In this document: one piece after another, positions 799 through 15,063 of the stretch
Numbering within the stretch: position 1 is the stretch's first letter
Layout: each line of letters opens with the position of its first letter
Assembly: GCA_022561215.1 (NCBI GenBank)
Contig: JADFRQ010000005.1
Coordinates: 1-64,000 of the forward strand
From: Chloroflexota bacterium
GTDB lineage: Bacteria; Chloroflexota; Anaerolineae; Anaerolineales; E44-bin32
Direction: 5' to 3'
Length of the DNA: 64,000 nucleotides
The notes under the pieces: model-generated
What the model was told of the DNA's origin: nothing
Databases searched by the model: none
What the model saw: the letters and a program-made list of their open reading frames with translations, nothing else
Program-made: the position numbers and the translations under genes

Positions 799-3700
799 GT
801 GAATATGCAATCGAAGTCCCAGGTTTGTCCCAATTGCTCCTCGGAAAACCCTGCTGACGCGAAGTTCTGTCAACAATGCGGGCAACCTCTTGCGTTGCTC
901 TGCCATAACTGCAGCACTTCAAACGACAGCAACGCGAAATTTTGTAAAAATTGCGGCTTCGAACTAAGGGCGGCCGTCGATAACAATCAGGAAACTAGGT
1001 TAAGTTCGCTGCAACAATCTGCGCCGAGCAGTTTTCGGGAAAAGATGCGTGCGGCGACGACTGCACTCGAAGGCGAGCGCAAACATGTCAGCATCCTGTT
1101 TGTCGACATCGTTGGCTCCACGTCGATTGCCGAGAAACTCGATCCGGAAGAGTGGAAGGAAGTAGTCACCGGTGTCCATCGCCGCGTAGGAGAAGCGATT
1201 TATCGCTACGAGGGTACTATTGCTCAACTTCTCGGCGACGGCGTGTTGGCATTCTTTGGGGCGCCGGTGACGCATGAAGACGACCCCGTGCGGGCGGTGC
1301 GCGCCGGACTGGATTTGCTCGAAAGCATCCAATCATACCGTGAGGAACTCACCGGCTATATCGAGGATTTTCATGTTCGTGTGGGGATCAATACTGGCAC
1401 AGTCGTCATCGGCAATATCGGCTCCGATATGCACATGGAGTACACCGCGTTGGGCGATGTCGTCAACGTCGCCAGCCGGATCGAATCATCCGCCTACGCG
1501 GGAACCGTATTGGTTTCTGAAGAAACTTTTCGGCTTGCAACAGATCAAATCGAGTTCAAGGATTACCGTGAGATCAGCGCCAAGGGGAAAAGAGAAGCGG
1601 TCAAGGTTTTTGAAGTCATTGGCCTGCGCAACTCGCTCGTGGGGCAAACACCGGTAATCGAATCGAGTTTCGTCGGTCGTGAGAAGGAATTGGCTGTGAT
1701 GCAAGATGTTCTGCTCTCATTGAGCAGCGGCCGCGGCCAAGTTGTCGTCGTATTGGGAGAAGCAGGCATTGGGAAGAGCCGCTTTATGAGGGAAGCGCGT
1801 GCTCACAGTGCGCGAAATTACAATATGAGGCAGGCTGAAATTGATAGCGAATCGCTTTTGGTGCCTCCTTCGGGATTACGCTGGTTGGTTGGCCGATCTG
1901 TCTCCTATGGCGAATCATTGTCTTTTCGGGTGATCACCCAGCTTTTGCTCGCCGATCTAAGTCTACCAGAAGGCACACCTGAAGCAAGAGTAGAAATCGC
2001 TCTGCGTAAACGCGTAAAAGAACTCTTTAATTCCGATGGCGGCGACATCCTGCCTTTATTAACCAACCTCCTGGGGCTGAAACTTGGATCAAAGGCCAGA
2101 GAACTTATCCAATCCGCAAGTGGTGAAACCTTAAGACGGCGCACCCTGGACGCCATTGCGGCCTACTTCTCGGCGGTTGCTGAAGAACAACCGATCGCGC
2201 TTGTGTTTGAAGACATGCATTGGGCTGATCCCTCGAGCATGCAGACCCTGGAGAAGCTCATTGAGCTAACCGACCGTCTGCCGTTATTGATCCTGTGTGT
2301 GATGCGCATCGAAAAGGAACATCGCTCATGGAAGATTAAACTGCTTGCCGAAACTGATTATGCTCATCGTTATATGGAAATTCAACTCCTTTCGCTTACG
2401 CAAGGTGAGTCTGCAGCCTTGGTCGATGGGTTGTGGGGTTACTCAGAGCTACCGCAAGATATCCAGAAATTGGTGATGATGAAGTCAGAAGGTAATCCAC
2501 TTTACATTGAGGAGGTGAGCCATCATCTAGTTGAGCTGGGCGTTCTCGTTAAAAGCAATGGAAAATGGGAGGCGGCGGAGAAAATCAGTGAGATCGGCAT
2601 TCCGGAAACATTGCAGGGCGTGCTTTTAGCGCGTATCGATCGCCTGGAGAAGGACGTGCGCCAAACACTTCAATTAGCATCGGTTATTGGCAGAAGTTTC
2701 CTCTACAAAGTGTTGCATGCCATTTCCGCATCCGAAGAGCAGCTTGACGCCCACCTGACACAGTTGCAGCGGTCTGATCTGGTGCGAGAAAACACACGCT
2801 TGCCTGAACTGGAATACATCTTCAAACATGCACTCACCCAGGAGGCGGCTTACAATTCACTGCTGATCGAGCGTCGTACGGAATTTCACCGCCTTGTTGG
2901 CCAGGCGCTCGAAAATCTGTTTCCGGAGCAGGCGGATGAATTTACCGGGCTCCTGGCGCACCATTGGGATCGTGCTGGTGATGTCAAAAAGGCCTCGAAG
3001 TACCTCACCCTTGCGGGCGAGCGCGCGCGCCGATTGCACGCCCATCATGAAGCCCTTGTCCATTTTGACCGGGCGATTGAGCTTTCGGATAAAGGGACGC
3101 ATGAATACATCGCGCTACTCCGCAAGAGAGCTCAAGTGTACGTCGATTTGTTTCAAGGTAAACCGGCCGTTGCTGACTTTGATGAAATTAATTCCTTTGC
3201 CCATGCAGAAGATAATCACACCATCGAGTTAGAAGCGCTATTGGGCCTTGGCCGTGCGTATTACATTGTTGCTTTGGACGAGCCCGGGGCCGATGTTCCC
3301 GAAAATTCACGCAAGAATTATGAACTAGCCTACGATCTTGCAAAGAGCCTCGACGATAAGGCCGGAATGGTTAAAGCGCTTTTGCCAACCATTTACCTTG
3401 CAGATTTCTGGCCTGATTATGAGGATCAGGTCGAGGCGAATATGAAGGAGGCCGCGGAGCTTAGCTTGAGCATTGACGATGATGATCTTGCTCTAGAAAA
3501 CGAATTGGCTCAGTTTCAGATTGCTCCTACCACACAAAAAATAGAATTATTTTCGGGGTTGCGATCCAAGCTCGAGACAAAGCAAGACTTGACGCGCTTA
3601 AACATGGTTCATTTTTTCATGATGTGGGCTTATCTCGAACAAGGACTTTTCGAGCGCGCAGTTGAAACATGTGATTCCGGGATCGCGTTAGCGAAAAGAA

Positions 3701-4479
3701 TCGGCGTGCCGCCGGTCCAATATCCCACCCTGAAAGGTTGGGCCTTAATGCGGCTCGGTCGCTTTGACCAGGCATTCGGCTCATTTCAGCAAGAAGTATC
3801 GGACGAGGATCACCGCTTCGGAAGGGTATTCAGGGATTTTGGTTATGCCATCACTTATCTTCAATTACTCGATCACGACCAGGCCAGAATAATGTTGGAG
3901 GTCGTGCTCAAGGAAGCACAGCTCCTCAACCGCGCCTGGCTTATCAGCAGAGCAAACGCCTATATTATCCCCGCTATGCTCGGGGGTAGGAACAGCGAGC
4001 CTCAGGTACCGAATGATATTCTCGATCAATTAGAAGAAGGGAATTTGCCGAAAGCGAGTATCGCGAGCGGTGCTTACCTTCTTTCCAAGGGGAAGCACAA
4101 GGAGGCCCTAGAAAAGGCCGATGCTGCTTATGCCCTGGCAACAGAATACACACACCAACCCGATAAAGTAAACGCGATCCTGCTCAAAGCTCGAGTTCTT
4201 ACCCAAATCGGTGACCATGGAAAATCCCTCGCTGCTGCGCAGGAGGGCATCCGCATTGCAACAGAAATTGAATATGTACCTCTGCTCTGGCAGTTGCATG
4301 CGATCAAAGCCGAAACTCACTCCGCATTGGGTGATGCAACAGAAGCTTCTCATTCGAATAAGCAAGCGGGAGAAGTCATTCAGCAGCTCGCAGATACTAT
4401 TTCCGATGAACAACTCAAGGCCGGTTTTCTTGGACACCCCAGGATCTCCTCCATCCTGGGAGCGATCGGCAATCCCTAA
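799..4479 (+). CDS. Class III adenylate/guanylate cyclase with N-terminal double zinc ribbon, AAA ATPase and TPR region
   Basis: CPNC..CQQC..CHNC..CKNC zinc ribbons; cyclase core VSILFVDIVGST, LGDGVLAFFG, GDVVNVASRIE; P-loop GEAGIGKSR; long helical repeat C-terminus. Confidence 0.9.
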   Translation: MNMQSKSQVCPNCSSENPADAKFCQQCGQPLALLCHNCSTSNDSNAKFCKNCGFELRAAVDNNQETRLSSLQQSAPSSFREKMRAATTALEGERKHVSILFVDIVGSTSIAEKLDPEEWKEVVTGVHRRVGEAIYRYEGTIAQLLGDGVLAFFGAPVTHEDDPVRAVRAGLDLLESIQSYREELTGYIEDFHVRVGINTGTVVIGNIGSDMHMEYTALGDVVNVASRIESSAYAGTVLVSEETFRLATDQIEFKDYREISAKGKREAVKVFEVIGLRNSLVGQTPVIESSFVGREKELAVMQDVLLSLSSGRGQVVVVLGEAGIGKSRFMREARAHSARNYNMRQAEIDSESLLVPPSGLRWLVGRSVSYGESLSFRVITQLLLADLSLPEGTPEARVEIALRKRVKELFNSDGGDILPLLTNLLGLKLGSKARELIQSASGETLRRRTLDAIAAYFSAVAEEQPIALVFEDMHWADPSSMQTLEKLIELTDRLPLLILCVMRIEKEHRSWKIKLLAETDYAHRYMEIQLLSLTQGESAALVDGLWGYSELPQDIQKLVMMKSEGNPLYIEEVSHHLVELGVLVKSNGKWEAAEKISEIGIPETLQGVLLARIDRLEKDVRQTLQLASVIGRSFLYKVLHAISASEEQLDAHLTQLQRSDLVRENTRLPELEYIFKHALTQEAAYNSLLIERRTEFHRLVGQALENLFPEQADEFTGLLAHHWDRAGDVKKASKYLTLAGERARRLHAHHEALVHFDRAIELSDKGTHEYIALLRKRAQVYVDLFQGKPAVADFDEINSFAHAEDNHTIELEALLGLGRAYYIVALDEPGADVPENSRKNYELAYDLAKSLDDKAGMVKALLPTIYLADFWPDYEDQVEANMKEAAELSLSIDDDDLALENELAQFQIAPTTQKIELFSGLRSKLETKQDLTRLNMVHFFMMWAYLEQGLFERAVETCDSGIALAKRIGVPPVQYPTLKGWALMRLGRFDQAFGSFQQEVSDEDHRFGRVFRDFGYAITYLQLLDHDQARIMLEVVLKEAQLLNRAWLISRANAYIIPAMLGGRNSEPQVPNDILDQLEEGNLPKASIASGAYLLSKGKHKEALEKADAAYALATEYTHQPDKVNAILLKARVLTQIGDHGKSLAAAQEGIRIATEIEYVPLLWQLHAIKAETHSALGDATEASHSNKQAGEVIQQLADTISDEQLKAGFLGHPRISSILGAIGNP

Positions 4480-4500
4480 ATCATAGTAGGATCATGAACG

Positions 4501-5670
4501 ATGAAACTTCGCCATGGAACACCAGAGGAAGCAGGCGTTTCGGCTACTGCCACTAAGCTGATCGTAGCGCGCGGACAGCAATGGATTGACAAGGGCATTC
4601 ACCCCGCGCTGGTAGTGCTCGCCGCGCGCAAAGGCGTTATCTTTCTCCAGGAAGCCTACGGAAAGCTGACGCCAGCGGAAGATGCTCCGCATCTCTCGCT
4701 GGATGCGATTTTCGGTCTTGCTTCGCTCACCAAGCCCATCACTGCCACGTGTGCGATGCTCCTTGTGGAGGATGGTCTCTTGGGATTGAACCGTCCCCTG
4801 CAAGAATACATCCCCGAGTTTGTTGGCGAGGGCAAAGAGCAGGTGATGGTGCATCATTTGCTGACGCACACCTCCGGGCTTGCCCAGGATGATGTGATTT
4901 GGGATGACGTCGTCACGCAGGGGCTGAACTTTGATGAAATTTCTGACCTTGCGAAAAACGAACATTCCGCAATTCATTATTACCTGCAATATGCGATCGA
5001 AGCTGCTGCCGTCCGCAGACCTGGGGAATGGATGGAATACAGCAACGCGGGCATTTACCTACTCGGCGAAATTGTGCGCCGGGTGAGCGGTAATTCTTTG
5101 GACGCGTTTGCCACCCATCGGATTTTCGAGCCCTTAGGAATGAAAAGCACACGCTACATCCTGCCGCTCGAGCTGCAGCAGCGCGTATGTCTGAGTCCCG
5201 ATAACGCCCCAGGCGATTTCTTAAATGACATCGAATTCATGGAACGGCCCTCACCCGCAGCGGGTGTCTATTCATCCGCAAGGGATATGGCGATCTTTGG
5301 CCAGATGTTCCTAAACCAAGGCCATTACGGCGATGTACAGATTTTGAGCCCGATCACTGTCGCGGCGATGACCCGTAACCAACTGCCGGGTGTTAGAGCG
5401 AAATACTTTGGGGATGAGTTCCCTGAAGCCTCATGGGGGTTGGGGTGGAGCGTGACTGCCGAATTCAAAGGTGAAATTTATGGCGAACAACTGCTCTCGC
5501 CGATCTCTTACGGTCATGGCGGCGGGGGAGGTACCGTCCTGTGGATGGATCCCGAAAAAGAACTCCTTTTGGTTTATTTCTCGATCGAAACGCAAACCTC
5601 GGAGGATCGACCGATACTCAGCGCCGATTTATTTATGAACATGGTCGTCGCGGCGATTAAGGATTATTAA
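4501..5670 (+). CDS. Serine hydrolase, class C beta-lactamase family (tandem paralog 1)
   Basis: SLTK (SxxK), EYSNAG (YxN), HGGGGG motifs; no signal peptide. Confidence 0.9.
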   Translation: MKLRHGTPEEAGVSATATKLIVARGQQWIDKGIHPALVVLAARKGVIFLQEAYGKLTPAEDAPHLSLDAIFGLASLTKPITATCAMLLVEDGLLGLNRPLQEYIPEFVGEGKEQVMVHHLLTHTSGLAQDDVIWDDVVTQGLNFDEISDLAKNEHSAIHYYLQYAIEAAAVRRPGEWMEYSNAGIYLLGEIVRRVSGNSLDAFATHRIFEPLGMKSTRYILPLELQQRVCLSPDNAPGDFLNDIEFMERPSPAAGVYSSARDMAIFGQMFLNQGHYGDVQILSPITVAAMTRNQLPGVRAKYFGDEFPEASWGLGWSVTAEFKGEIYGEQLLSPISYGHGGGGGTVLWMDPEKELLLVYFSIETQTSEDRPILSADLFMNMVVAAIKDY

Positions 5671-5713
5671 ACCCGAGCATAGGTTGGCTGGTGTTGCAAA
5701 TGGACATAACAAC

Positions 5714-6436
5714 ATGAAACTTCGATCAGGCACCCCGGAAGAAGGAGGCGTGTCACCTGGCGCGATCGTGCGCATTCGTGAACGCTGTGAGGGTTGGGTC
5801 AAAGACGGGCTGCATTCCGCATTGGTGGTCATCGCCGCACATAGAGGTGTTATCTTCCTGGAGGAAGCCTATTGGAAACTTTCGCCCGCGCATGATGCGC
5901 CTGATCTAAAAATAGACGCGATTTTCGGCCTCTCATCGCTCAGCAAACCCATCACTTCCACTTGTGCGATGATCCTCGTGGAGGATGGTCTCTTGGGCTT
6001 GAACCGGCCTCTGCAGGAATATATTCCTGAATTTGTTGGCGAGGGAAAAGAGCAGGCGATGGTGCATCAATTGCTCACACATACCGCGGGTCTCAGTGAT
6101 GATGCCGTGGTCGAGGTGATCACCAAGAAAATCGAGGATAAAATTGATCTTCCCGAAATGGATGAAACTCAACATCCGCGCAATCACGGCACCCTGCACT
6201 ATGGATATGACACGCCACTTTCAACCTGTCCTGGTGAAGTTATGGTATACGGCGAGCAGCTGCTTTCACCCTCCTATTCTGTACATGGAGGTTCCGGCGG
6301 CGTGGTGTTGTGGATCGATCCTATCCAGGAGATCGTGGGCGTGTTTTTTTCGATTTTAACTCAGACTCTAGATGATCGACCATTATTGGGAGCAGACCTC
6401 TTCATGAACATTTTTGCCGCCGCGGTCGAGGACTAG
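5714..6436 (+). CDS. Internally deleted class C beta-lactamase-family serine hydrolase (tandem paralog 2)
   Basis: MKLRSGTPEEGGVSPG start as in the paralogs. SSLSK and HGGSGG retained, but about 150 aa between PGEVMVY and GEQLLSP missing relative to paralogs 1, 3 and 4. ATG at 5714 preferred over TTG at 5684. Confidence 0.75.
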   Translation: MKLRSGTPEEGGVSPGAIVRIRERCEGWVKDGLHSALVVIAAHRGVIFLEEAYWKLSPAHDAPDLKIDAIFGLSSLSKPITSTCAMILVEDGLLGLNRPLQEYIPEFVGEGKEQAMVHQLLTHTAGLSDDAVVEVITKKIEDKIDLPEMDETQHPRNHGTLHYGYDTPLSTCPGEVMVYGEQLLSPSYSVHGGSGGVVLWIDPIQEIVGVFFSILTQTLDDRPLLGADLFMNIFAAAVED

Positions 6437-6443
6437 GCGATCG

Positions 6444-7613
6444 ATGAAGCTGCATGCTGGCACACCAGAGCAGGCGGGTATTTCGCCGTCGGCTGTTGAT
6501 TTAATTCATGAGCGCGGGCAGGAATGGATTGACAAGGGGATGCACTCTGCGCTTGTGCTTCTGGCCGTTCGCAAAGGCGTTATCTTTTTAAATGATGCTT
6601 TTGGACAGCGGTCACAGGGCGATGAACCAGGATCGCTGCCGCTCAATACTATTTTCCCGCTGGCCTCAATTACCAAAATTATCACCGTAACCGCGGCGAT
6701 GACGCTCGTCGAGGAGGGCCGCCTCGGCCTTAACCGACCGGTCCAAGAATACATCCCGGAGTTTCAGGGCAAAAACAAAGAGAAGGTGATGGTGCATCAG
6801 TTAATGACCCACACCGCGGGGATCGACGATGAAGCTGTTTTTCAAGCGATCAACAAGAAAGAAGACGAGGAAATCGATCTCCCAGCAAGGGAAGCGAGCG
6901 CGCATCCGACGCTCCACCGCTGGCTGCATATCGGGCTCTCCATTCCGCTTATCCTTTATCCCGGCACTGAAATGTTGTACAGCGGCTTCGGGATCCAGTT
7001 GCTCGGCGAGATTCTGCGCCGCCTGAGTGGGCAATCACTGGACGATTACGCTCGCGATAGAATTTTTCATCCATTGGGAATGCGCGACACCTTTTACAGC
7101 ATTCCTGAGGATGTTCGCCAACGCGTGGTAATACACGCGGAAGAAGGCCCATACGCCGAGGAGAATGATCCCTCAATCCAGGAGCGTCCGTCTCCGTCGG
7201 GCGGCGCGTTTTCAACCGCTATGGACGCCGCCGTGTTCGGACAAATGTTCCTTAACAAGGGTACCTATGATGGGAAGCGCGTGCTGAGCCCTGCAGGTGT
7301 CTCCGTAATGACGCGCAATCAACTGCCCGGAATCTCAGCCCGACTGCTTACCGAGGTCTACCCGGAGGCGAGTTGGGGGTTGGGCTGGAGCGTGAATCAT
7401 GCCTACAAAGGGCAAGTGTATGGCGAGGCCTTGCCATCAAATTCAACCTTTCTTCACACCGGCGGAGGTGGTGTTTTGCTCTGGGTCGATCCTGCGCTGG
7501 AGATCGTGGGTGTATACTTTTCGACTGAGTTAAGCACCAACGAAGACGGTTTGCATGTTTGGAATGCGGATTTATTTATGAACATGGTCAGCGCAAGTGT
7601 GGAAGACACGTAA
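6444..7613 (+). CDS. Serine hydrolase, class C beta-lactamase family (tandem paralog 3)
   Basis: SITK, LYSGFG, HTGGGG motifs; MKLHAGTPEQAGIS start at 6444, in frame with ORF 6414..7613. Confidence 0.88.
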   Translation: MKLHAGTPEQAGISPSAVDLIHERGQEWIDKGMHSALVLLAVRKGVIFLNDAFGQRSQGDEPGSLPLNTIFPLASITKIITVTAAMTLVEEGRLGLNRPVQEYIPEFQGKNKEKVMVHQLMTHTAGIDDEAVFQAINKKEDEEIDLPAREASAHPTLHRWLHIGLSIPLILYPGTEMLYSGFGIQLLGEILRRLSGQSLDDYARDRIFHPLGMRDTFYSIPEDVRQRVVIHAEEGPYAEENDPSIQERPSPSGGAFSTAMDAAVFGQMFLNKGTYDGKRVLSPAGVSVMTRNQLPGISARLLTEVYPEASWGLGWSVNHAYKGQVYGEALPSNSTFLHTGGGGVLLWVDPALEIVGVYFSTELSTNEDGLHVWNADLFMNMVSASVEDT

Positions 7614-7641
7614 TGTGTTATCTTCAGCAGGGAAGTTCGAC

Positions 7642-8805
7642 TTGAAACTAAGGGAAGGCTCGACAGAAGAAGTCGGGGTCTCTATGGACCGAGTGCAGAA
7701 GGTCCGCGACATGGCGCAAGGCTGGGTTGATGATGGCATCCATCCCTCGCTCGTGGTAATTGCCGCTCGCCGGGGTGTGGTCTTCCTGCACGAGGCATTT
7801 GGCCGACTGGGTCCGGAGGAAGGCGCACCCCCGCTGCAAAAGGACACCATCTTCCCGCTGGCCTCGATCTCGAAACCGATCACCGCCACTGCAGCGATGA
7901 TCCTGGTTGAGGAAGGACTGTTAGGTCTCAACCGACCGGTGAAAGACTATGTCCCTGAGTTCGAGGGTGAAGACAAAAACCAGGTTCTTATTCGCCAACT
8001 GCTCACCCACACCTCGGGACTCAGCGACAGCGACCTTATCAAACACGCAAATGGGGAAGGCATCGAACTGGATGAGGAGTCGAGTATTCCATGGATTACT
8101 AAAAATGTGAATGCCTATCTGGACCTGGTCTGCCAAATGCCTCTGGGAAATCCACCTGATACAGAAATGATCTACGCCGACCTTAATTACAACTTGCTGG
8201 GAGCGGTAATCCATCGCGTCTCGGGAATAAGTCTTTCCGATTTTGCGGAACAGCGGATTTTTCAACCGTTGGGCATGAAAGACACCAGCTACATCGTATC
8301 CGATACAGCGCTAGATCGGGTCGTACAGCGTTCTCCCGATGTCCCAGATTACGACCTAACTTCCAGCTTAATGAAGTCAAGTCTGGGGAGCGCCGGCGCG
8401 TACTCCACGGTAATGGACATAGCGTTATTCGGGCAGATGTTCCTTAATCACGGACGTTATGGCGGCACACGCATTCTAAGCCGAGCTTCTATCGAGGCGA
8501 TGACGCACAACCAAATCCCGGGGATTGGAGCGCAGTTTTTGGGGGATAAGCTTAGCGAAGCGGAATGGGGTCTCGGTTGGAGCACGCATATCAATAAGAA
8601 GACCTGGCGATGGGACGAGGCCCTGCAATCGCCGACATCCTACTCGCATGGCGGATCCGGCGGCGTGATGTTGTGGGTCGACCCTGTATACGAATTCGTT
8701 GCCGCTTACTTCGCAGTTTGTCCAGGCTTCCGAAAGAATGGTTGGCCAATAACGAATGCGGATCTTTTCATCAATGCCGCGTTGGCAACAATCGTTGATC
8801 TATAA
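7642..8805 (+). CDS. Serine hydrolase, class C beta-lactamase family (tandem paralog 4)
   Basis: SISK, IYADLN, HGGSGG motifs. TTG at 7642 gives (M)KLREGSTEEVGVS, matching paralog N-termini; the ORF track starts at 7597. Confidence 0.85.
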   Translation: MKLREGSTEEVGVSMDRVQKVRDMAQGWVDDGIHPSLVVIAARRGVVFLHEAFGRLGPEEGAPPLQKDTIFPLASISKPITATAAMILVEEGLLGLNRPVKDYVPEFEGEDKNQVLIRQLLTHTSGLSDSDLIKHANGEGIELDEESSIPWITKNVNAYLDLVCQMPLGNPPDTEMIYADLNYNLLGAVIHRVSGISLSDFAEQRIFQPLGMKDTSYIVSDTALDRVVQRSPDVPDYDLTSSLMKSSLGSAGAYSTVMDIALFGQMFLNHGRYGGTRILSRASIEAMTHNQIPGIGAQFLGDKLSEAEWGLGWSTHINKKTWRWDEALQSPTSYSHGGSGGVMLWVDPVYEFVAAYFAVCPGFRKNGWPITNADLFINAALATIVDL

Positions 8806-9161
8806 CATATCGTTTCTCTTCAGCGCCAGCCATTTCCCTCGCTCGCAATCTATTATCAGCGTATTTACCTGTTGAACCATAGTTGATTCCAATTGATTTA
8901 TCTCCACAACCAACAATATCCTGAATCCTGCAAAGTGTTACGAAACCGAGCATCTCAAATTTATCGTAAGGTCTTTGAGATGTAAGCTGCATTAGCGAAA
9001 TTATAAGGCACTGCCGCTATAACAGGATAAGGCTTGTGAGCTAATCGTGATCCAATTGCATTCAATTTGTGTACCCCCGGCAGAATTTATTATGATCAGA
9101 GGGTGTCGTCGCGGTAAACTTAAAACGATGCCTGATTCCATTTTTATCTCATGGAGTTGCT

Positions 9162-12100
9162 TTGTCTGAATATACGATCTCGCTTTTCGGCCAGGTGCGC
9201 CTGGCGCAGAACGGCCAGCCGATCGAAATCCCCCATCGCAAGGGCTTGGCGCTGCTAGCCTTTCTTGCGCTCGAGAAACAGCGGAGTCCCAGGATCGATC
9301 TTGCCACCATGTTCTGGCCCGAATATAAATCGACTCGCGCTTTGGCCAATCTACGCCGAACATTGTGGATACTGGAGCAATCCAAGTTCAGTACAGTATT
9401 AATTGTTTCCGACGATCACGTCCAGCTTAATACCGATAGTAAGTTGGTGATTGATGTTGATCAATTCCGAAATGCTCTAGAACCATGGCGCAACTCGGAT
9501 GAAACAAGCAGCAAACTACAACAAGAGCACTACGACTCGCTGGTGCAATCCACCGAAATTTATGAGGATGACTTCCTTGCGGATTTACATCTTCCCGATA
9601 GCAAAACCTTCGAGGATTGGGCTTCCCAACAGCGCCAGGATCTTCGCCGGGATATGCTCGAAGCCTTGGCTGCACTTACGCGCCATCACCTTGCGCACGA
9701 AGAATATGACCCTGCCCAAACTTTTGGCTGGCGACAGTTAGAAATCGACCCGCTATCTCAGATCGCTCTACGGCAGTTGATGATTACCTTATCAAAAAGC
9801 AATCATCCGCGCGCGGCGCTCGCATTATTTGAAAACTTCCGCAAACTGGCCGAACGAGAAAGCGTGGACTTGGACGAGAAAACGCGCAAACTCCAGGAAC
9901 AGATTCATGATCAAATGCAAGCGAGTCAACTAGCGGCCGCGAGTGAGCGCGAGGCCGAACTCGCTCCTGATCGTCATGCTCCCATTCCAATGCCAGTTTT
10001 TTTGTTTACGGATATTGAGGACTCCACTCGACTTTGGGATGAGCACCGCGAAGCGATGCTGCCAGCATTATTGAAGCATAACGCAATTATTGAAGACACT
10101 ATTACAGAATACGGTGGTCAGATACTCGAGATGCGTGGAGACGGCTTTTGGGCGGTGTTTGAGCGAGGGGATCCCTTAGCAAGTGCATTGGCTATTCAAG
10201 TAGCTTTCGGAAGTACTGATTGGGGCGCACTGGACGAACTGCGCATCCGCATTGGTTTGCACGGTGTTTCGAGGGATTGGGAAGGGTATGACTTCTTTAA
10301 AAGCAACGATTCCTATTACGGCTCAGTCCTCAATCAAGCCGCTCGATTAATGCAAGCTGGCTGGGGTGGTCAAATTTTGAGCTCCTCAAGTATCAGAGAT
10401 GCGTTGCCAATGCCTGATCGCGGTTCCTGGCAAGAGTTCGGCGAACATGATCTCGAAGGCCTAGAGGAACCGCTTCACATTTTTGGTTTACTCCACCCTG
10501 AGTTACCCCATCAAACTTTCCCCGAACTACGCACGTTAACCTCAGGATCCGGATTAGGACAAGGCGGGATTGAATCGACAAGTCCTTATCGTGGTTTGTT
10601 TGCATTTCGGGAGGAAGACTCCCCCTATTTCTTTGGTCGCGAAAGCTTCACGGAATTACTCTCTGAATCCGTCCATCAACGCTCAATGGTGGCGGTAGTT
10701 GGTCCATCTGGAAGTGGGAAATCATCCGTGGTCCACGCGGGTCTGCTTGCCCAACTGCGTCGAGAAGGGAAATGGCTCATTACATCCTTTCGACCGGGCA
10801 ATCGGCCCTTCCATGCTCTTGCAGCTGCCCTAATCTCCCGCCTCGAGCCACAATTGAGCGAAACCGATCGTTTGGTGGAGACCAACAAACTAGCCCAAGC
10901 TTTTCAGCAAGGCGATGCCTCGCTAATGGACGTGATCCAGCGCATTCTTGACAAACAAGAGCCCGGTACCCGCTTCCCGCTGGTGGGTGATCAATTTGAA
11001 GAGCTTTATACCCTTGTCCCGGAAGCCGAGATCAGGGCGCGCTTTATGGATACCCTGACCGATGCGGTCTTTGAGCAGCAGTATCGTAGTGCTCCAGTTT
11101 TTTCACTGATCCTCACGCTGCGTGCGGATTTCATGGGCCAGGCTCTCGCACATCGTCCATTTGCAGATGCGCTTCAGGAATCAGACGTCAAATTGGGACC
11201 AATGACGGATCCTGAGCTCAGGCGAGCAATTGTCGATCCTGCAAGGAAATTAGGTGTTGCCTTCGAGCCCGGCCTAAGCGCGCGCATTTTAGATGATGTG
11301 GGCGACGAACCCGGGAACTTGCCTTTGTTGGAATTCGCCTTAGCGATGCTGTGGGAAAAAAGAGAAGGCGCATCGTTGACGCATTCTGCCTATGAGGCAA
11401 TAGACCGCGTGGATGGGGCCTTGGCCCGCCATGCGGACGCAGTCTTTTCGGATCTTTCTCCAGACGAGAAAGACTTGGCGCGGCATGTATTTACGCAAGT
11501 AGTTCGACCTGGCGAGGGGACCGAAGACACTCGACGCCTGGCGACACGGTCTGAATTAGGCGATAAAAGTTGGAAGCTCGTTCAGCGCCTTGCTGATTCC
11601 CGCCTCCTGGTTACCAGTCGAGACACATCAGGCGTAGAAACCGTCGAAGTGGTGCATGAAGCCTTGATCCGTGGTTGGGCGCGCTTACGCGACTGGATGC
11701 GCATCGATCGCTCGTTTCGTGTGTGGCAAGAACGCTTGCGCGCCGCCATTCGTCAATGGGATTCAACGGAGAGAGACGATGGAGCACTCTTGCGCGGTGT
11801 GAGCCTGAGCTCCGCAGAAGAATGGTTGAATGAACGATCGGATGCTCTCAGCGGAGAAGAGGTGAAATTTATCCAAACAAGCCTCAACTTGCGTGACGCG
11901 CGTCAAGCAGCACGTGAACGCCAGCGGCGTCGTATCACGATCGGGCTTGTTTCTGGACTTGTGGTGACCCTTATCCTGGCAGGATTAGCAATCGTGCAAT
12001 GGCAAACGGCTTCCGAGGAACGCGATATTGCACAGTTCGCCAGATCACGTCAATTAGTCGCCCAAGCCCTGACGTTGAGGGATCGACAACTAGACTTGGC

Positions 12101-14216
12101 ATTGCTCTTGGCAAATGAGGCCGCGCGCATCACAGATACGAAAGAAACGCAATCGAGCCTGAGAACCGTGCTCGAATCAAATCTCAGGCTGGTGCAGTAT
12201 TTACCACCCATTGTCCCTGACTTCGATGCGGTATTCAGGTCTTCAAGCTTTGGAACCAATATTGATAGGAGCATCCTTGCATTGGGAGATACCGACGGCG
12301 AGATTACACTTTGGGATCTGGTTGCTGGAGAGCTGCTTGAACTAACGCTTCAACGTATCGGAATTCCTATTGGCGAGATGGTATTTAGCCCGGACGGAAT
12401 GCTTTTAGCATCAGGGGGTGATGATGGCGTCATATTCGTTTGGAATCTGACATCTGGCGGGCTATATACCACTCCCCTTAAAGGGCATCAAGGGATTATT
12501 ACGGATTTGGCCTTTAGCCCAGATAGCAAAATTTTAGCCTCCGGAGGCGAGGATACGGAGGTCCTGCTGTGGGAGATGGAGAGTGGTACACGTATTGGAT
12601 CCGCGCTTATCGGTCATAGAGCGGATGTGACGGACCTGAAGTTCAGTCCGGACGGTCAATATCTGGTCTCAGCTGGGGAAGACGGATTAATCCTGCTTTG
12701 GGATCTTTCTACTGAAGAGGCTACAAGCACCCCTTTCATTGGGCATCCTGTATCCTCAGTAATTGAAGTCTTATTCAGTCCTGACGGAAAAATCATCGCC
12801 TCCGCTGGCCAGGATCGTCAGGTGATTCTTTGGGATGTTTCCACGGCGCGGCCCTCCAACATACCCCTCATTGGTCATGAAGATGACCTCACCAGCTTAG
12901 CCTTTGGCCCTGAAAGCCGATTCCTGGCATCCGCAGACGAAGGCGGAACTATTTACCTTTGGGATGTTGCTACAGGGAATGCGCTAGGTCCGCCATTGAT
13001 CGATGAAAATAACCCGATTCGCGATCTGTGGTTCAGCGATGATGGAGAATACGTATTCTCTTTTAGGGGGAATGCAGGCATCCAATGGAAATTTACAGAG
13101 GCTGGTATTATCACGCAGACGGCCGCCTTGGACTTGGATCGTGACGTGGTAACTTTGGCCATTAGCCAGGATAAATCTCAATTATTTGCAGCTATTTGTG
13201 ACGTAACACGGTGCGATGAAGTAGAGGCCTCCGCTTGGAGCGTGAGTACCGGCGAGGAGATAGACTCAACCATCATCGTCTCAGGGGGAGATCCTTTCTG
13301 GATTCGGAAATTTAGCTCTGGTGGGGAATACTTGGCGCTGGGCACCGTTGAAGGACCAGTGTTTCTATTCGATAGGAAACGTGGAGAAACGCGCACATTA
13401 AGCGGACCACAATTGCCGATTGCTAGCCTTGCTTTCAGTGCTGATGGAAGCACGTTGGTTGGAGGCGGATGCGGGCAAGGAAATCTATCAACCGGGATAT
13501 GCTCGCAAGGTGAGATCTGGTTCTGGGATCTTGCAACTGGTGAAGCCAACGGTCCCCCTCTCGGCGGTCACGAGCAGGGAATCAATGGCGTCGCCCTGAG
13601 CTCGGACGGCCGTACGTTGGTATCTGGAGACGGCGATGGCAAGATCCTTGTCTGGGATCTTGAGACGGGACTACCAAACGGTGTGTCAATCATGATAGAG
13701 GCCGGATTGATTGGAATGGCGCTTAGCCCCGAAGGGAATGTGCTCGCAACCTATTCAAATGGTCCCCTAATATTTTTATGGGATTTAAGTACGGGCAATC
13801 AGATTGGTCGTCCGTTAGCCGACCCTGGCGGTATTGTAAGCGAGATTGCCTTCAGTCCGGACGGCTCGATCATGGCATCGGTAAATGCGGGCAACCAGGT
13901 GACATTATGGGATATCTCCAGCGGGCGCGTGATCGGCGATCCACTTGGCGGTCATACAGATGACGTAATTAGCCTCGCCTTCAGCACTGATGGAAAGATG
14001 CTGGCGACAGGCAGCAGGGATCAAAGAGTTATTTTGTGGAGTCTAGCTGGAGGTGAATTGGCGTTCAGCTTTCTGGGATTGGATCTTAAACAGCTGAGCG
14101 CTGAAGCCTGCCGCCGGGCCAATCGCAATTTGACGCTTGATGAATGGGAGCAATATTTCCCGGGCGAGGATTATCACGCTACTTGTCCTGAACTTCCGAT
14201 CCCTACTGCCAGCTGA
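9162..14216 (+). CDS. SARP/BTAD - class III cyclase - nSTAND1 ATPase - TM - WD40 repeat multidomain signalling protein
   Basis: N-terminal winged helix plus BTAD (ISLFGQVRL...LALLAFLAL...FWPE..RALANLRRTLWIL); cyclase FTDIEDSTRLW, RGDGFWAVF, SVLNQAARLM; STAND SPYRGLFAFREEDSPYFFGRE, GPSGSGKSS, FPLVGDQFEELYT; TM ITIGLVSGLVVTLILAGLAIV; many LWDL-type blades. TTG start. Confidence 0.9.
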   Translation: MSEYTISLFGQVRLAQNGQPIEIPHRKGLALLAFLALEKQRSPRIDLATMFWPEYKSTRALANLRRTLWILEQSKFSTVLIVSDDHVQLNTDSKLVIDVDQFRNALEPWRNSDETSSKLQQEHYDSLVQSTEIYEDDFLADLHLPDSKTFEDWASQQRQDLRRDMLEALAALTRHHLAHEEYDPAQTFGWRQLEIDPLSQIALRQLMITLSKSNHPRAALALFENFRKLAERESVDLDEKTRKLQEQIHDQMQASQLAAASEREAELAPDRHAPIPMPVFLFTDIEDSTRLWDEHREAMLPALLKHNAIIEDTITEYGGQILEMRGDGFWAVFERGDPLASALAIQVAFGSTDWGALDELRIRIGLHGVSRDWEGYDFFKSNDSYYGSVLNQAARLMQAGWGGQILSSSSIRDALPMPDRGSWQEFGEHDLEGLEEPLHIFGLLHPELPHQTFPELRTLTSGSGLGQGGIESTSPYRGLFAFREEDSPYFFGRESFTELLSESVHQRSMVAVVGPSGSGKSSVVHAGLLAQLRREGKWLITSFRPGNRPFHALAAALISRLEPQLSETDRLVETNKLAQAFQQGDASLMDVIQRILDKQEPGTRFPLVGDQFEELYTLVPEAEIRARFMDTLTDAVFEQQYRSAPVFSLILTLRADFMGQALAHRPFADALQESDVKLGPMTDPELRRAIVDPARKLGVAFEPGLSARILDDVGDEPGNLPLLEFALAMLWEKREGASLTHSAYEAIDRVDGALARHADAVFSDLSPDEKDLARHVFTQVVRPGEGTEDTRRLATRSELGDKSWKLVQRLADSRLLVTSRDTSGVETVEVVHEALIRGWARLRDWMRIDRSFRVWQERLRAAIRQWDSTERDDGALLRGVSLSSAEEWLNERSDALSGEEVKFIQTSLNLRDARQAARERQRRRITIGLVSGLVVTLILAGLAIVQWQTASEERDIAQFARSRQLVAQALTLRDRQLDLALLLANEAARITDTKETQSSLRTVLESNLRLVQYLPPIVPDFDAVFRSSSFGTNIDRSILALGDTDGEITLWDLVAGELLELTLQRIGIPIGEMVFSPDGMLLASGGDDGVIFVWNLTSGGLYTTPLKGHQGIITDLAFSPDSKILASGGEDTEVLLWEMESGTRIGSALIGHRADVTDLKFSPDGQYLVSAGEDGLILLWDLSTEEATSTPFIGHPVSSVIEVLFSPDGKIIASAGQDRQVILWDVSTARPSNIPLIGHEDDLTSLAFGPESRFLASADEGGTIYLWDVATGNALGPPLIDENNPIRDLWFSDDGEYVFSFRGNAGIQWKFTEAGIITQTAALDLDRDVVTLAISQDKSQLFAAICDVTRCDEVEASAWSVSTGEEIDSTIIVSGGDPFWIRKFSSGGEYLALGTVEGPVFLFDRKRGETRTLSGPQLPIASLAFSADGSTLVGGGCGQGNLSTGICSQGEIWFWDLATGEANGPPLGGHEQGINGVALSSDGRTLVSGDGDGKILVWDLETGLPNGVSIMIEAGLIGMALSPEGNVLATYSNGPLIFLWDLSTGNQIGRPLADPGGIVSEIAFSPDGSIMASVNAGNQVTLWDISSGRVIGDPLGGHTDDVISLAFSTDGKMLATGSRDQRVILWSLAGGELAFSFLGLDLKQLSAEACRRANRNLTLDEWEQYFPGEDYHATCPELPIPTAS

Positions 14217-14284: not shown

Positions 14285-14758
14285 TTATTTCCAAAATTCC
14301 TGATGAACGCGGGCGGCTTCATGCTTAAGATTAGGTCCAAGCACTTCAACCTCGCGCGATCCCCGAGCGAGCACTTCACGGCAAGAAATTCGCAAACCCT
14401 CACCTTCATTTCCACCCGGAACCATTGCGTACAGTTGCTCCTGACTCAGACCGTAAACCACGCGTGAGATGTTTCCCCAATAAATAGCCCCAGCACACAT
14501 CGCGCAAGGTTCGGTGCTTGCATACAGCGTGCATCCCGCAAGAAAGTCGGCATCGTACTGCCTGCTAGCGGCGCGCACCAGATTCGTTTCTGCGTGAGCC
14601 GTGACATCCCCATCTGTAACCACCGTATTCTCGGCTTCGAGGAGAACCTTCCCCTCTCGATCAACCAATAGCGCACCGAAAGGATGATTTCCCTTTTCAA
14701 CGGCATCTCTGGCGAACTGTATAGCTGCGCGCAGGTGGACTTCATCGATTTTATTCAA
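14285..14758 (-). CDS. Nucleoside deaminase (CMP/dCMP-type deaminase fold, guanine/tRNA-A deaminase-like)
   Basis: HAETNLVRAA and STEPCAMCAGAIYWGNISRVVYG zinc motifs. Start may be TTG at 14758 or further upstream (ORF to 14821). Confidence 0.85.
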   Translation of the reverse strand: MNKIDEVHLRAAIQFARDAVEKGNHPFGALLVDREGKVLLEAENTVVTDGDVTAHAETNLVRAASRQYDADFLAGCTLYASTEPCAMCAGAIYWGNISRVVYGLSQEQLYAMVPGGNEGEGLRISCREVLARGSREVEVLGPNLKHEAARVHQEFWK

Positions 14759-14772
14759 AGACTCTCCGCCGC

Positions 14773-15063
14773 TCACTTTGCTGGCAAGGATCGCGCGAAC
14801 GCAAGCCCGCGATCGACCCATTTCTCCAGATCTGGGTCGCTTTCGAAACCTGGCGGGCGAACCAATAACCAGCCCTTCATTGGGCGGCCGGTAATGTCGA
14901 ATGGGGAGGTAAAGGGCTCATCCATGGCTTGTGCATGCGATTCGGGGCCGACTCTCACGACGAGTTGATCCTTGTGCACACCACAAGCCATATTTCCGCG
15001 CGCAAGAAAAGCAATCCCCGCAAACATTTTATCTCTGCAATACCTTTGTTTCTGCATTAACAC
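14773..15063 (-). CDS. TfoX N-terminal domain family protein
   Basis: KMFAGIAFLARGNMACGVHKDQLVVRVG...MKGWLLVRPPG, a typical TfoX_N pattern. Confidence 0.8.
   Translation of the reverse strand: MLMQKQRYCRDKMFAGIAFLARGNMACGVHKDQLVVRVGPESHAQAMDEPFTSPFDITGRPMKGWLLVRPPGFESDPDLEKWVDRGLAFARSLPAK

Follow-up and report, generated by a model that had tools for sequence, protein, structure and literature searches.

The sensor gene and its hydrolase array

The window analysed here is a stretch of 64,000 nucleotides (nt), positions 1 to 64,000 of contig JADFRQ010000005.1, from the genome assembly of a Chloroflexota bacterium (GCA_022561215.1; 3.39 Mb in 126 contigs). Near its start, the gene of a large cyclase/STAND-like sensor protein is followed on the same strand by four serine hydrolase genes (H1 to H4). 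This combination of sensor and hydrolases is conserved in four phyla, and the part of the sensor that accompanies the hydrolases is its C-terminal TPR module, whereas the N-terminal output domain differs from locus to locus.

The sensor gene (799..4479; all features of the window described below lie on the forward strand unless stated otherwise) encodes 1226 amino acids (aa), in which Pfam domains define a zinc ribbon, a class III cyclase and an AAA_16 (STAND-like) core, followed by the TPR module. The double zinc ribbon (aa 10-53; 826..957; Pfam DZR, E-value = 2e-12) is missing from the kinase, TIR and Bacteroidota versions of the linked sensor. In the cyclase domain, the swappable output (aa 95-268; 1081..1602; Pfam Guanylate_cyc, E-value = 3e-28), the alignment reads the metal Asp, Asn and Arg as retained and Gln in place of the usual substrate Lys. 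The P-loop and its downstream arm (aa 291-765; 1669..3093; Pfam AAA_16, E-value = 2e-21) form the STAND-like switch core, and the GxxGxGK and acidic-W motifs are conserved in the alignment of sensor cores. The C-terminal module (aa 766-1226; 3094..4476), about 460 aa long, is modelled by AlphaFold2 (AF2) as an all-helical superhelix with a predicted local distance difference test score (pLDDT) of 91.8, and has 37 invariant columns in the alignment of linked sensors; a GxPPVxYPT...LGR motif is among the invariant residues. With AAA_16 and TPR both recognized by Pfam, the protein combines two features that characterize STAND NTPases, a P-loop core of the AAA_16/NACHT type and C-terminal superstructure-forming repeats.

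The hydrolases follow with gaps of 21 (sensor to H1), 43, 7 and 28 nt, and no other protein of the whole assembly matches PF00144. H1 (4501..5670; 389 aa; E-value = 9e-62) has the family VIII esterase/beta-lactamase fold with S75-x-x-K78, Y180 and H339-G-G. H3 (6444..7613; 389 aa; E-value = 7e-58) retains the catalytic residues, and H4 (7642..8805; 387 aa; E-value = 3e-59) starts with TTG and has an in-frame GTG at 7597. H2 (5714..6436; 240 aa) has lost about 144 central residues in frame: the alignment and the reading of the junction show that the counterpart of H1 residues ~181-323 has gone between two Tyr codons, leaving one Tyr at the junction, and H2 is probably not an active enzyme. Such decay of copies is repeated elsewhere, in the second hydrolase of locus L038 and the fifth of locus L036 (L036 8000-9178); the latter, in which both the catalytic Lys (Lys78) and HGG are gone, is a candidate pseudoenzyme. 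The hydrolases are under purifying selection, as the non-synonymous and synonymous divergence between H1 and H2 shows (dN 0.29, dS 1.95).

In an alignment of 18 hydrolase sequences, Ser75 and Tyr180 are invariant, Lys78 is present in all but one, and the third motif is HGG or HTG, not KTG. The Ser-x-x-Lys and Tyr that characterize family VIII carboxylesterases and class C beta-lactamases within the PF00144 fold are therefore present. The AF2 model of H1 (pLDDT 90.6) gave Foldseek matches to this fold, and the nearest solved structures by profile and fold are family VIII carboxylesterases, EstG and a macrolactin acyltransferase. These structures and the confident model make it likely that the hydrolases act as esterases, acyltransferases or amidases on some small acyl compound. 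The N-termini open directly on the MKLRxGTPEEAG motif of the catalytic domain and thus leave no visible signal peptide, in agreement with the cytosolic location proposed in the initial annotation. That annotation had also argued against a simple secreted role in beta-lactam resistance, and such resistance is rejected here as well: H1, H3 and H4 score 51-62 bits against the class C beta-lactamase cut-off of 415, and lack both KTG and a signal peptide. Its gene descriptions and coordinates proved accurate for all open reading frames (ORFs), except that one of its four hydrolases, H2, carries the internal deletion.

Linkage across phyla and the C-terminal module

A scan with H1 of one genome per species recovered relatives at 45-55% identity in Chloroflexota, Bacteroidota, Gammaproteobacteria, Poribacteria and Paenibacillus. 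Linkage to a sensor was found at eight loci (the window and seven others) in seven genomes of four phyla, namely, Chloroflexota, Poribacteria, Bacteroidota and Gammaproteobacteria. An AAA_16-TPR protein lies directly upstream of the hydrolase on the same strand at L031, L032, L033, L036 and L038; L046 is a second, likewise linked copy in Poribacteria, and L097 is a further linked locus. The two genes are separated by 21 nt in the window, 8 in L031, 2 in L032, 18 in L033, 9 in L036 and 107 in L097, and overlap by 4 nt (GTGA) in L046 and by 77 nt in L038, where the C-terminus of the sensor looks damaged. Five hydrolases stand in a row in L036, and in L032 two are fused into one protein of 801 aa. 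Because it is conserved at seven further loci, the association of the cyclase/STAND/TPR protein with the hydrolase array is real and beyond chance. The initial annotation was correct in associating the two, which stay linked in relatives, and its candidate undescribed locus is supported in that no description of the pairing was found in the open-access literature searched.

The combination is rare. Strong hydrolase relatives occur in three of about 60 near genomes, and none was found elsewhere in samples of about 400 from the class and the phylum. Distant relatives (below about 40% identity; L047 and L051-L065) have no sensor directly upstream. Among plasmids, the best hydrolase match (41%) is on a Paenibacillus megaplasmid without a sensor and no match to the TPR module was found; viral contigs gave weak hydrolase matches only, none with the module. 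One further candidate, L048 on a second contig of the gammaproteobacterium, was rejected as a linked locus, an opposite-strand DinB gene lying between its TIR protein and a hydrolase fragment. Genes for a phage-type integrase (L033 2-385), an IS3-like transposase (L046 11936-12736) and a PIN-domain protein (L032 5619-6005) are found beside the sensor-hydrolase genes, hinting at mobility.

The output domain of the linked sensors is a zinc ribbon with a cyclase in the window, L031, L038 and L046, a cyclase alone in L033, a Ser/Thr kinase in L032 and a TIR domain in L036; in L097 the contig ends inside the N-terminal output region. Many similar cyclase-AAA-TPR proteins, some with a cyclase domain 60% identical to that of the window protein, exist in this genome and its relatives with no hydrolase behind them. 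The C-terminal module separates the two groups completely. With the window module (aa 766-1226) as the query, linked sensors scored 165-373 bits and no unlinked sensor exceeded 41; when all eight linked modules served as queries in turn, the lowest linked score was 149-172 and the highest unlinked score 43-77 bits, with no overlap. With the ATPase core as the query, the most distant linked sensor was outscored by an unlinked one every time. The STAND core of the linked sensors is indeed polyphyletic: a tree of the cores rejected a single clade of linked sensors (log-likelihood difference 327, approximately unbiased test p = 5e-6), with some rows long-branched and their exact placements unsure. 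The TPR module has thus been combined with a number of different STAND cores and outputs, each time in the company of a hydrolase.

In the hydrolase tree, window H4 is the sister of the second L032 hydrolase (100/99), and H1 and H2 group with the first (88/76), so that the two-hydrolase arrangement and its order are older than the exchange between cyclase and kinase at these two loci. The competence of the cyclases also varies between linked loci. In L031 and L033, as in the window, the metal residues, the Asn and the Arg are all present, and Gln stands where the substrate Lys usually is. The two Poribacteria cyclases lack the transition-state Asn as well as the substrate Asp; this variation suggests that the output can change without loss of the hydrolases.

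The module was also used on its own, by searching 327 genomes of the class with the TPR module alignment alone. Besides the window genome, this search gave one strong match (G808:C230, 435 bits; the next was 81), which is locus L097. There, a hydrolase of the same clade, 45-49% identical to H1, H3 and H4, begins 107 nt downstream of the sensor and is cut by the contig end. Among 83 Poribacteria and 168 Bacteroidota genomes, the module was found only in the genomes already known to carry it, and the orphan-hydrolase genomes G457, G458 and G460 contain no TPR module.

The role of the hydrolases

In STAND proteins, the repeat module reads the signal. Because the hydrolases are kept across changing outputs and follow this signal-reading part, the simplest interpretation places them on the input side, and they are probably not effectors of the cyclase. 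We lean, without great confidence, towards the view that the sensor and the hydrolases are one signalling cassette, in which hydrolases and TPR module form the input half. The sensor would be a STAND-type switch in which an ATPase core lies between the output domain at the N-terminus and the TPR superhelix at the C-terminus. A hydrolase might dock on the superhelix and hold the switch off (or on) according to its substrate or acyl-enzyme state, or it might make or remove a small acyl compound that the TPR module reads. The ligand state would then be relayed via ATP/ADP exchange to the output domain, giving a cyclic nucleotide here and protein phosphorylation or TIR action elsewhere, and the presence of several hydrolase paralogues would allow a wider range of compounds to be reported. 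The more specific idea that the hydrolases are receptor subunits of STAND switches, with paralogues sampling different acyl compounds, the TPR module reading their state and the outputs being interchangeable, is a tentative one of rather low probability. A defence role is possible.

A precedent in principle exists in E. coli, where direct binding of the esterase Aes inhibits MalT, a STAND protein (PMC10427625). Both cases join a STAND ATPase bearing a repeat-type sensor to a cytosolic esterase-type enzyme, and direct binding is a feature of MalT-Aes. The present case differs in that the enzyme has the beta-lactamase fold and goes with the TPR module at the C-terminus of the sensor, whose output domain varies and is at the N-terminus.

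Several points weigh against the cassette as we interpret it. In MalT, Aes probably acts on the ATPase region and not on the repeat domain, so the parallel holds in principle only. Hydrolases of the same clade stand without a sensor in Paenibacillus and in one Anaerolineae genome; the unlinked loci of this clade are L034 and five in Paenibacillus. Seven of the eight loci were found via the hydrolase, so that the module search above amounts to one unbiased success in going from module to hydrolase and not to a census. The contigs that carry L031, L033, L036 and L097 measure 3.7-10.6 kb and come from metagenome-assembled genomes, so that the phylum given for each depends on binning; the assignments are firmer for the window and for L032 (100.8 kb), L038 (43 kb) and L046 (13 kb). 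Finally, what the comparisons themselves establish is the gene linkage, the specificity of the module, the swapping of outputs, the polyphyly of the core, and the fold and catalytic residues of the hydrolases; the switching of the STAND core, the physical contact, the direction of signalling and the nature of the ligand are what we infer from them.

An explanation close to the cassette model is that the hydrolases only end the signal, destroying the TPR ligand for reset or self-protection and never touching the sensor. It accounts for the co-inheritance of module and hydrolases and for their indifference to the type of output, and it suits an esterase/acyl-hydrolase fold, but several divergent paralogues and the retention of broken copies (H2 and the fifth copy of L036) are not readily explained by it; we regard it as unlikely. 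Equally improbable, in our estimate, is that the sensor output switches on the hydrolases as effectors or metabolic enzymes, through a second messenger or phosphorylation that acts on the enzymes or on their expression. The order of sensor then enzyme is common in operons of regulator-effector pairs, and the retained S, K, Y and H-G-G indicate that the hydrolases are probably active. However, hydrolases of one clade accompany cyclase, kinase and TIR outputs alike, and in Poribacteria a cyclase lacking the Asn and the substrate Asp, and domain searches found no added nucleotide-binding or regulatory domain on the hydrolases. The proposal of the initial annotation that the hydrolases could be gated effectors is not supported for gating by the cyclase, as they track the C-terminal TPR module only. 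That the two parts are carried together in a mobile cassette but are not functionally coupled is hardly credible in spite of the patchy distribution of hydrolase relatives, the integrase gene near L033 and the transposase gene beside L046, as the module is kept while the surrounding core is exchanged, the hydrolases are under purifying selection, and hitchhiking would not maintain a single domain boundary in four phyla.

STAND proteins have central roles in immunity and regulation, and to our knowledge the sensed signal is not known for most of those in bacteria. With one sensor module singled out and its partner enzymes named, a STAND input becomes directly testable, and because outputs are exchanged while the input pair stays the same, sensing can be told apart from the response. 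If the hydrolases are truly receptors, a fold best known from beta-lactamases would gain a cytosolic signalling role.

Related systems and neighbouring genes

Several known systems resemble the sensor-hydrolase pair in part. The TOMM (thiazole/oxazole-modified microcin) kinase/cyclase fusion family, TIGR03903, which combines a kinase and/or cyclase with AAA and repeats, is the best NCBIfam match of all sensors tested. However, they score 149-284 bits (the window sensor 264) against a cut-off of 706, and the match stops before the C-terminal module. No microcin genes, such as those of a TOMM precursor or cyclodehydratase, were seen among the large ORFs within positions 1-17 kb of the window, the range that the survey covered. 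Avs and related STAND conflict systems likewise have an exchangeable N-terminal effector (cyclase, TIR or kinase), a STAND core and a repeat sensor (PMC7159879, PMC10427625), but a conserved serine-hydrolase partner is not described for them in the open-access literature searched, and no Avs model is among the PADLOC matches listed. The sensor cyclase domain matches the PycC models of Pycsar (E-value = 2e-21); unlike in Pycsar, no cyclic-nucleotide-binding effector (PycTIR or PycTM) is adjacent, the neighbours are PF00144 hydrolases only, and the cyclase is replaceable and does not stand alone. Membership in Pycsar, TOMM and Avs was rejected, as a defining feature is missing in each case. On the enzyme side, family VIII carboxylesterases and EstG/BmmI-type proteins (4ivi, 7uda, 6kjh-6kjt) are the closest solved relatives and share the SxxK and Tyr, whereas the linked hydrolases are a clade of their own, without a visible signal peptide and in tandem behind a sensor gene.

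Other sensors of the cyclase-AAA-TPR type have neighbours of different kinds. Those of L070 (786-4990) and L071 (4772-9037), from relatives, are followed by a small protein, of the DinB family in L071, and by a protein that starts like a response regulator; these may be a further set of partners specific to a sensor. The related sensors of L099 (4625-9658) and L098 (3473-8635), from different genomes, are each followed within 4-25 nt by a similar protein of about 500 aa, a candidate for another conserved pair. In L101 (2415-12975), six tandem related proteins of about 530-595 aa share a stretch with the sensor ATPase arm and adjoin a cyclase/AAA fragment.

Downstream of H4 in the window, after a gap of 356 nt, lies the gene of a BTAD-cyclase-nSTAND1-WD40 protein of 1684 aa (9162..14216; weak Guanylate_cyc, E-value = 3e-7; nSTAND1, E-value = 7e-120), which in the initial annotation was the second of two sensors bracketing the hydrolases. 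No relative of it was found beside the hydrolases at L032, L033, L036, L038 or L046, where flank lengths vary, the L033 and L036 contigs ending 0.7-1.5 kb past the last hydrolase. Since it is not conserved at linked loci with readable flanks, it was rejected as a partner, is judged to lie outside the cassette and is best regarded as a neighbour. A promoter/terminator scan gave counts no higher than in shuffles, and an Rfam search gave no match. Just beyond the nSTAND1-WD40 gene, on the other strand, a dCMP_cyt_deam_1 protein of the cytidine/guanine-deaminase type (14285-14821) looks like ordinary housekeeping.
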